A program made the translations under genes and the position numbers. The notes under the pieces were generated by a model. The model had not been told where the DNA came from, did not search any database, and was given only the letters and a program-made list of their open reading frames with translations. Shown here one piece after another: positions 1 to 34,840 of a DNA stretch of 64,000 bases (position 1 is the first letter of the stretch; every line of letters starts with the position of its first letter). Location: positions 2,480,001 to 2,544,000 of the forward strand of contig CP073750.1 in the NCBI GenBank assembly GCA_024398135.1, read 5' to 3'. The DNA comes from a bacterium SCSIO 12643. GTDB lineage: Bacteria; Bacteroidota; Bacteroidia; Flavobacteriales_G; Salibacteraceae.

Positions 1-480
1 GATGCGAATGGAGGAATTTTAGGTACAAATGGGTTGTATTCTGAAATTTATTTTGTGGAAAGAGGCTTTACGATGTCAGCTAAATTTGGCCAAATATTTA
101 ATGTGTTTTCAGCAAATCCAAATTCTGGTATTATGTTATTAGGTGGTGTTGGTCTCATGCAGCATCGTATCAAATTCGAAGATAAATTTAATGAAGTGCC
201 TCTACTTAGCGGTAAAGATTATTACCCTGGATATGATCGATTATCAAATGGCGTGATGTTTACAGAGTTTTTAGGTTACAGATTGTTGAGTGATAAACGT
301 TTGATAAATGTATTTATGGGGGTTGAGTTTACTCAGGCAATCACTCAGAATAGAAGAGAAATAAACTATGATACCGGACTTAAAGACGATACTCAACGTT
401 TGGATTTAACCATGGGATTAAAAATAGGCTTGTCATTACCATTATATAAGCCGACACCTCAGGAATTTTATTATAGATAA
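1..480 (+). CDS. C-terminal part of a probable outer-membrane beta-barrel protein (5' end outside window)
   Basis: The frame is open from base 1, so this is the 3' part of a gene that starts left of the window; the TTG at 34 is only an internal codon. About 159 residues are visible. They show alternating hydrophobic and polar stretches with aromatic residues, as in barrel strands, and the protein ends in Tyr-Tyr-Arg. The stop lies 3 bp before waaA, so the two are probably co-transcribed. That neighbour suggests an envelope role, but I cannot name the family. No conserved motif is recognised. Confidence 0.6.
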   Translation, partial: DANGGILGTNGLYSEIYFVERGFTMSAKFGQIFNVFSANPNSGIMLLGGVGLMQHRIKFEDKFNEVPLLSGKDYYPGYDRLSNGVMFTEFLGYRLLSDKRLINVFMGVEFTQAITQNRREINYDTGLKDDTQRLDLTMGLKIGLSLPLYKPTPQEFYYR

Positions 481-33436: not shown

Positions 33437-33511
33437 GGGCGATTAGCTCAGCTGGTTCAGAGCACCTCGTTTACACCGAGGGGGTCGGGGGTTCGAATCC
33501 CTCATCGCCCA
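33437..33511 (+). tRNA. tRNA-Val (anticodon TAC)
   Basis: 75 nt. The acceptor arm GGGCGAT pairs with ATCGCCC, the D arm is AGCTCAGCTGGTTCAGAGC, the anticodon loop is TTTACAC with TAC, and the T arm has GGTTCGAATCC. The discriminator is A, with no encoded CCA. It has its own promoter and terminator. Confidence 0.97.
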
Positions 33512-33519
33512 CAGAAGGA

Positions 33520-33550
33520 AAGCCTATCACGAAAGTGATAGGCTTTTTTT
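33520..33550 (+). terminator. Intrinsic terminator of tRNA-Val
   Basis: AAGCCTATCAC (33520-33530) and GTGATAGGCTT (33535-33545) form a perfect 11-bp stem over GAAA, then seven T. The T tract also forms the start of a second, longer inverted repeat. Confidence 0.92.
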
Positions 33551-33596
33551 GTATCCAAATGTCCAAACGAAGTTTGAGAATTTGGATACAAAAAAA
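33544..33596. repeat. Long inverted repeat after the tRNA-Val terminator
   Basis: The arms 33544-33560 (seven T then GTATCCAAAT) and 33580-33596 (ATTTGGATAC then seven A) are perfectly complementary over 17 bp. The 19-nt centre contains a further CAAAC/GTTTG stem (33564-33568, 33572-33576). It could act as a terminator for minus-strand transcription or as part of the structured block that follows. Confidence 0.7.
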
Positions 33597-33830
33597 GGTG
33601 TAATTCTGCGTTAGCGGAATTGGCATTCCTTCTACAAATAAACTTGGCGAACAGAGGGAATGCGTAGCAATCCTATAGGTTGTTAAGGTGTTTTGTAAGA
33701 AATAGAGTTGGGCAAAGTAATAATGCGCGTTAGGGATAGAAGTGGTACCCCACAGTAAACCGAAGTGGTGCGAGGAGTAAAGCGGAAAGCCCGGCCGAAA
33801 TGATTGAAAAGAATTGAGGTAACGCCCAAA
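33597..33830 (+). ncRNA. Probable structured non-coding RNA element
   Basis: No supported ORF. Nested complementarities are visible: AATTC/GAATT around GCGTTAGC (33602-33622), GCATTCC/GGAATGC (near 33627 and 33656), and an outer stem GCGTTA (33727-33732) with TAACGC (33820-33825). The outer stem encloses GGGATAGAAG (33733-33742) and AGCGGAAAGCCC (33781-33792), whose GGG and CCC can pair, around an inner hairpin with CCAC/GTGG. GATAGAAG...AGCGGAAAGCCCG with a variable hairpin between is, to my recollection, a motif recurring in Bacteroidota intergenic regions; I could not test the match to Rfam (for example Flavo-1). Strand is inferred from the tRNA upstream. It ends before a bidirectional terminator. 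Confidence 0.5.
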
Positions 33831-33850
33831 ACAAAAAAATATAAAGTCAC

Positions 33851-33883
33851 AAAAAAGCCGCTAGAAACTCTAGCGGCTTTTTT
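33851..33883. terminator. Bidirectional terminator between the non-coding block and mdh
   Basis: GCCGCTAGA (33857-33865) and TCTAGCGGC (33869-33877) form a perfect 9-bp stem, with six A before it and six T after it. It serves mdh on the minus strand and the non-coding block on the plus strand. Confidence 0.9.
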
Positions 33884-33907
33884 ATTTAATAAGCTTAAAT
33901 GGGATGA

Positions 33908-34840
33908 TTAGATGTCCATTCCATCTAAAATATCTTTAACACCACGAACAGCTACAGAAGACTCTTCTAAAAGCGCTTTTTCATCACTGTTTAGGTCTAA
34001 TTCGATAATTTTCTCAATACCGTTTTTACCTAAAATTACAGGTACACCCAAGTAAATATCATTTTGATCATACTCACCGGTTAACCATGCACACACAGGG
34101 AAAACTCTTTTTTGATCTCTAACGATAGCTTCTACCATTTGTGCAGCAGCAGCACCAGGCGCATACCATGCAGAAGTTCCTAGTAATTTAACGATTTCAC
34201 CACCACCAGTTTTTGTGCGATCAACAATAGCTTGTAGTTTATCATCATCAATTAATTCAGTTACAGGAATACCCCCTACAGTTGTATATCTTGGAAGTGG
34301 TACCATAGTATCACCATGACCACCCATTAATACAGCTTGAATATCTTTTGGAGAAACGTTTAATTCTAAAGCAAGGAAAGAGCGGTAACGTGCTGTATCT
34401 AAGATACCAGCCATACCAAATACTCTACTTGAATCAATACCAGCAGTTTTAAATGCTTGATAAGTCATTACATCTAATGGGTTAGACACAATGATGATAA
34501 TTGCATCAGGAGAATGTTTAATCACTTGTTCAGTTACTGATTTTACAATTCCTGCGTTAGTTGCGATTAAGTCGTCACGACTCATCCCAGGTTTACGTGG
34601 CAGCCCTGAAGTAATAACAACAACTTCAGAACCTGCTGTAGCTTCGTAATCATTGGTTACACCAATGGTTCTTGAATCATACATGTTAATTGGAGAAGTC
34701 TCCCACATGTCTAAAGCTTTACCTTCGGCAACGCCATCTTTAATATCAAGAAGAATAATTTCATTAGCCACTTCATTGTGAGCTAATACATTGGCACAAG
34801 TAGCGCCTACGTTTCCGGCACCTACAACGGTTACTTTCAT
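33908..34840 (-). CDS. mdh: Malate dehydrogenase
   Basis: 310 residues of the LDH/MDH superfamily, interconverting malate and oxaloacetate with NAD in the TCA cycle. The Rossmann loop is GAGNVGAT (7-14). The substrate loop has RKPGMSRDD with the Arg that selects malate over lactate (near 82). Also present are VSNPLDVMTY and catalytic His175 in MGGHGDTMV. A TACATTTG element lies about 50 bp upstream (minus strand, 34898-34891) as a likely -7 box. The gene ends at a strong bidirectional terminator. Confidence 0.96.
   Translation of the reverse strand: MKVTVVGAGNVGATCANVLAHNEVANEIILLDIKDGVAEGKALDMWETSPINMYDSRTIGVTNDYEATAGSEVVVITSGLPRKPGMSRDDLIATNAGIVKSVTEQVIKHSPDAIIIIVSNPLDVMTYQAFKTAGIDSSRVFGMAGILDTARYRSFLALELNVSPKDIQAVLMGGHGDTMVPLPRYTTVGGIPVTELIDDDKLQAIVDRTKTGGGEIVKLLGTSAWYAPGAAAAQMVEAIVRDQKRVFPVCAWLTGEYDQNDIYLGVPVILGKNGIEKIIELDLNSDEKALLEESSVAVRGVKDILDGMDI

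Follow-up and report, generated by a model that had tools for sequence, protein, structure and literature searches.

The window, by which we mean the whole 64,000-nt stretch of DNA analysed, holds a plus-strand tRNA-Val gene with anticodon TAC at 33437-33512 (ARAGORN; Rfam RF00005, 69 bits), which is the upstream neighbour of the block studied here and is followed by an intrinsic terminator (AAGCCTATCA-CGAAAG-TGATAGGCTTTTTTT; 33520-33550, plus strand) that can be read from the letters and that returns as the same hairpin after tRNA-Val in a congener, G001 (L025). On the other side, downstream of a bidirectional terminator common to both (33851-33883; z = -7.89, terminator scan), the block is neighboured by a minus-strand gene (33908-34840) that, from general protein knowledge, we take to be mdh, encoding malate dehydrogenase. 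A sequence-only reading of this DNA had described the 300 nt in between as an ORF-free, hairpin-rich block with a conserved core, possibly a structured RNA. Consistent with its first two claims, we see no plausible gene in 33513-33907, where two ORFs on the minus strand, of just 51 and 55 aa, are without support, the hairpins are found where it placed them, and the plus strand of the block folds better than its shuffles (z = -4.15; 0/200 shuffles), the excess on the minus strand being weak (z = -1.72). A search of the window at the Rfam gathering score returned tRNAs only, and a repeat search of its own genome showed the block to be single-copy. DNA searches of 60 relatives matched its halves separately, not as one unit, which speaks against the view that it is a single entity: the block is real, non-coding and hairpin-rich, yet made of two unrelated modules, A and B.

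Module A, a hairpin cluster beside tRNA-Val

Module A (33543-33700) lies directly 3' of the tRNA-Val terminator and is the source of nearly all of the block's folding excess. It comprises hairpin H1 (33543-33597; z = -8.94), a near-perfect palindrome of CTTTTTTTGTATCCAAAT...ATTTGGATACAAAAAAAG, and hairpins H2-H4 (33601-33685), which include GAGGGAATGCGTAGCAATCC and for which 33598-33700 gives z = -3.28. A counterpart was found in congener G001 only, at the same tRNA-Val and as two tandem copies; H2-H4 are kept there, and the arms of H1 differ from those of the window in most letters with their complementarity preserved. Judged from these matches, module A is a predicted hairpin cluster separate from module B and found in this genus only.

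The tandem duplication in G001 runs over L025 1501-1631 and L031 1501-1597 (window counterpart 33543-33685), and a 1001-aa ORF that is missing from the window (L154 2511-6904) sits between the mdh-side element described below and module A with its tRNA-Val. On contig C3 of the same genome (L032, L033), an H1-like hairpin and a terminator stand in tandem, with a unit of about 176 bp that also carries an apparent remnant of a tRNA-Ser 3' end, next to a complete tRNA-Ser.

Module B and its predicted three-way junction

Module B (33727-33829, plus strand) is a divergent Flavo-1-like element whose parts, from stem P1 through a CCCAA tail, would form a three-way junction. In P1, the 5' arm GCGTT (33727-33731) pairs with AACGC (33821-33825), and these five pairs covary; the sequence-only reading had drawn the outer stem as GCGTTA/TAACGC, and its sixth pair, A33732-T33820, forms here but not across the family. 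Next comes P2a, whose GGG (33733-33735) pairs with CCC at 33790-33792 and shows GC/AU/CG exchanges between copies, followed by the conserved first strand of an internal loop (33736-33746, ATAGAAGTGGT; ATNGNAGYGGN in the family), of which positions 10, 11, 13, 15, 16, 18 and 19 are nearly invariant in 73 copies. The P2b hairpin (33747-33778) is variable in length according to alignment A2 and its pair counts; the window has an ACCCC...GGAGT variant of what is ATCC-TTTTT...AAAAA-GAT in most other copies, and the apical part differs in length and sequence from copy to copy. The second conserved strand of the internal loop, AGCGGAAAGCCCG, reaches into the 3' arm of P2a (33781-33793; alignments A2 and A5) and, like GGGATAGAAG at 33733-33742, is the sole exact match to its motif within the window. 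Hairpin P3 (33795-33819), with CC...GG closing pairs and double changes in 4/4 pairs (helix 5 of A5), lies beyond the Rfam model, and the element ends with the 3' arm of P1 and a conserved unpaired CCAA tail (33821-33829), as seen in the alignments and the conservation profile. As a separate observation, P2b apical loops (e.g. L077, L079, L089, L097) often contain a palindrome-like CTGAG...TCGAAG, as if a smaller repeat were nested inside.

Support for this fold comes from two sets of copies. Sixteen long-form copies that align well (A2) were fitted by hand with a 19-pair structure of P1 (five pairs), P2a, P2b and P3; they are 93.6% paired, show double changes in 14 pairs and give a covariation of 0.465 as opposed to 0.06-0.14 when the structure is slid. 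From the same 16 copies we built the covariance model R1, against which the window copy, itself one of the training rows, scores 71.7 bits. In a second set of 84 copies from named genomes the 19-pair fold is 96.1% paired with double changes in 17/19 pairs and a covariation of 0.318 (0.034-0.068 slid), figures to be taken with caution since this alignment is fitted to the model. These copies had been fetched by an exact 5'-core pattern, so the core letters are fixed in most rows; P1 and P3, which the pattern does not touch, have double changes in all nine pairs. In the raw sequences P1 occurs as GCGTT/AACGC, GCATG/CATGC, GCGCG/CGCGC, GGGTT/AACCC and GCAAA/TTTGC, and both P1 and the GGG/CCC pair of P2a covary across copies. 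Covariation of the outer stem, which the sequence-only reading had proposed to look for, is thus present in the 84-copy and the 16-copy set alike. The element has sharp ends: information falls to background within some two bases before P1 and a few past CCCAA, and the 5' flank is uninformative except for two pyrimidines. An extension of P1 that would pair past CC with these pyrimidines was weak (one position, z = 3.2) and was not adopted.

Since the energy of module B's own fold is at the level of shuffled sequence (z = -0.16 as RNA, 0.0 as DNA), its significance derives from the comparison of homologues alone. The proposal to judge the block by its folding energy hence holds for the block as a whole, by virtue of 33543-33685, and not for the core. 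On these alignments, what marks the element is a three-way-junction fold, a conserved unpaired CCCAA 3' end and copies that match only between its ends.

Relation to Rfam Flavo-1

To our knowledge, Flavo-1 (RF01705), a candidate small RNA on record since 2010, has not been given a function. The lead to this family given by the sequence-only reading was right: window positions 33718-33800 align to model positions 1-76, i.e. full length and with the core motifs present, albeit at 17.8 bits (E = 0.52) and so below the gathering score of 42, and its own genome has no Flavo-1 match above the cut-off. For module B, a single place was matched in each of G001, G002, G026 and, more distant, G049; all four have the core between ends that read GCGTTA...TAACGCCC or almost so, and they likewise align to Flavo-1 in full length and below threshold (24.2-31.2 bits). 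R1 detected 20 further copies, and 17 of these pass the Flavo-1 cut-off of 42 bits; therefore, the long form is what Rfam already partly detects. R1 in turn also recovers many classical Flavo-1 loci, several of them weakly or partially.

Module B and Flavo-1 have the same conserved core, GGGATNGNAGYGGNATCC ... AGCGGANAGCCCG. The 76-position Flavo-1 model, however, ends after CCCGACC and so lacks the 3' half with P3, the 3' arm of P1 and the CCCAA end. Going by the alignments, the Rfam model falls short of the full element, which adds a closed outer stem (P1) and a putative third helix (P3). The window copy differs from Flavo-1 in its ACCCC/GGAGT version of P2b, which probably accounts for its low Rfam score. 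Classical short-form copies from Flavobacterium, compared by eye, are without P3, and their P1 is seemingly replaced by AGC/GCT.

Distribution and dispersal

A Flavo-1 search was positive in 113/295 genomes of the class (controls 0/14) and R1 in 156/395 genomes and 75/196 genera, copy numbers from the 395-genome survey being lower bounds, to be read as at least so many. Sixteen of 41 relatives carry R1 matches: one in the own genome, seven and eight in congeners, and 13, 26, 36 and 40 in G024, G041, G049 and G039, respectively. Among the matches listed by a core-pattern scan of named genomes, nearly all fall in Bacteroidota (Flavobacteriaceae, Weeksellaceae, Sphingobacteriaceae, Chitinophagaceae, Bacteroidales and others), and copies are mostly intergenic and in either orientation, which bears out the earlier statement that such cores recur between genes of this phylum. 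Pattern matches in one Dormiibacterota and one Rhizobiales MAG had no R1 match. Plasmids gave no match to the element; the core pattern picked out 36 viral contigs (L399-L434), 18 of which have an R1 match, and these may be host flanks of proviruses.

Within single genomes, copies can be closely similar. Seven in G246, where the element has 93 nt, show 75-92% identity from about position 1 to 95 and have unrelated flanks, three in G129 agree at about 96% over about -17..101 (one pair further), and eight in G155 (L435-L442) agree over about -6..112 or more, some arrayed in tandem, one unit about every 130 nt, and others dispersed. The G246 and G129 copies are thus dispersed and short, with defined ends and unrelated flanks, as is the mark of MITEs. 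Target-site duplication was not evident, flank matches being no commoner than in shuffles. Other short dispersed repeats, matching many places in related genomes, occur in genus g26 (L268 7073-7240, 11140-11254).

Placement and orthologous sites

Relative to genes, the element lies 16 times sense and 16 times antisense in each of two sets (32 vs 32 in total). The supposed association of the cores with tRNA and rRNA genes was not borne out: none of 77 named copies is within 500 nt of a tRNA gene, and no rRNA turned up when 20 copies, taken with flanks of up to about 1.5 kb, were scanned with Rfam. A replichore orientation bias is expected of some single-strand DNA transposons; 42/77 copies from six single-contig genomes show none, the origin position having been checked in one genome, and a hint from the first 15 copies of G229 (11/15) was gone with 77 copies. 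In genus g26, each of the five species for which one orthologous site could be compared has the element there, although one species has it inverted and a second has it decayed, and therefore this site has no empty allele; a clean empty site, resolved to the base, was not caught. Among 26 loci scanned, an element adjoining mdh is found in the own genome and G001 only, in the same relative orientation and with a compensatory P1 change from GCGTT/AACGC to GCATT/AATGC. Because of this ortholog at mdh in G001, the window copy has not been recently mobile, and this single copy is probably inert.

A compensatory change in a copy kept by two species may also be taken to mean that module B is a DNA site used by the host (e.g. 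by a nucleoid or topology protein, cf. BIME/REP), selected and immobile today. Strong conservation of the core with free loops agrees with this, as does the preference for convergent over divergent gaps (9 to 6), given that these loci have a background ratio of 11 to 27 by crude ORF calls. Nonetheless, within the class, and likewise within its own family, most genomes lack the element, which argues against a general housekeeping site, decayed copies exist, and bursts of similar copies occur inside single genomes. So to our minds, such a host-used site is improbable.

DNA or RNA

RNA helices commonly change via G-U pairs. In P1 and P2a of both copy sets we counted 1276 Watson-Crick, 11 G-T and 4 A-C cells, whereas tRNA stems from the same sequences gave 281 Watson-Crick and 21 G-T cells (p = 7e-9 for the difference), with 14 tRNA genes making a small yardstick. 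Such near-exclusive Watson-Crick pairing would, short of proof, suit DNA.

The main rival to a DNA element sees module B as a structured RNA - an sRNA or 3'-UTR element - made by read-through transcription, with its internal loop as the binding site of a protein or ligand, close to what the sequence-only reading had in mind. It draws on the conserved loop sequences inside a covarying fold, which is the type of evidence from which Flavo-1 was originally called (PMC2864571), and on Flavobacterium psychrophilum, where some 5' transcribed regions overlap Flavo-1 matches (PMC9723704). The same study, however, finds these matches indistinctly sense or antisense to transcribed regions and many of them outside such regions (PMC9723704), in keeping with our 32 to 32 placements. 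G-T cells do outnumber A-C cells, yet not significantly, and G-U pairs are few; presence and copy number are patchy, and the window copy has a terminator on each side, while a scan of its surroundings for Bacteroidota-type patterns gave it no recognisable promoter. Hence a discrete structured RNA is not favoured by the strand-neutral, dispersed and patchy copies, and we regard this reading as unlikely. Rfam classes Flavo-1 among sRNA genes, but our evidence is in favour of a dispersed DNA element: its spread, its strand-neutral placement and its covariation, nearly all of it Watson-Crick, suggest when taken together that it is a mobile DNA hairpin and not an RNA gene. In the literature on dispersed hairpin repeats of Flavobacteriaceae we found none that names the element as DNA.

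A candidate mobile DNA hairpin and its possible mobiliser

We consider it fairly probable that module B represents a dispersed mobile DNA hairpin element of Bacteroidota, non-autonomous and kin to Flavo-1, of which the window has one old copy; the element as such most likely exists at the DNA level and is mobile in genomes other than this. A mechanism may be envisaged in which the DNA of the element, when single-stranded, folds on itself, and a recombinase from another gene, recognising this fold along with the loop and tail that are conserved, relocates or copies the element into new intergenic sites without target duplication.

Y1/HUH transposases (Y1_Tnp) were considered as candidates, and REP/BIME sequences with their RAYTs are alike in being intergenic, dispersed, of high copy, in either orientation, without target duplication and non-autonomous. 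In 41 relatives, however, Y1_Tnp genes do not track the copy number of the element. Among 30 Y1_Tnp loci fetched, the flanks of one hold an element, and this exception is an IS200-type gene in a genome with 40 copies. Moreover, G049 (36), G041 (26), G037 (9) and G001 (7) carry elements without a Y1_Tnp match.

A related alternative makes module B, with its core GGGATAGNAG...AGCGGANAGCCCG, an atypical REP of the Bacteroidetes RAYT/TnpA-REP subclass 2.6, the lead offered by the literature and one from the same phylum, whose genes are reported to be flanked by unusual structures with copies elsewhere in the genome (PMC6006769). Subclass-2.6-like RAYT genes with the signature NHVH...YIH[QN]NP do occur in the own family (L219, L222-L225), but their 1.5 kb flanks have no Flavo-1 or R1 match, and the four genomes above do with no Y1_Tnp at all that our search could match, which renders this alternative highly improbable. 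In the absence of any association with the element, RAYT/IS200 as mobiliser was rejected, and an autonomous partner was not found in these searches.

REPs are palindromes of 20-40 nt (PMC3733652), whereas the element is a three-way junction of about 80-190 nt. Nor is the GTAG/CGTC foot of REPs seen in it, and it shows no link to Y1 transposase genes in 41 genomes. MITEs resemble it as short non-autonomous repeats with inverted ends; in the element, though, the terminal inverted repeat P1 is not fixed but covaries, and target-site duplication is not found. Integron attC sites combine conserved boxes, placed around a spacer that stays unpaired, with an extrahelical C and a terminal structure that varies. 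Here, the resemblance is one of working only, and the element is unlike them in having a third helix and five variable P1 pairs instead of fixed R boxes.

Going beyond the window, we tentatively put forward, as a possibility that we ourselves hold to be somewhat doubtful, that Flavo-1 and the long form are no RNAs and make up a phylum-wide family of mobile DNA three-way junctions, moved in single-stranded form by a structure-recognising recombinase that would be neither a RAYT nor a classical IS200 transposase.

Overall, the sequence-only reading was confirmed in what it observed and partly supported in how it interpreted this. For the window itself the result is modest, namely one old and probably inert copy. 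If, however, Flavo-1 were shown to be such a longer element, covarying almost solely in Watson-Crick pairs and dispersed in both orientations, this would explain why an RNA function of Flavo-1 has not been found, would correct many genome annotations and would point to a DNA mobiliser in Bacteroidota.
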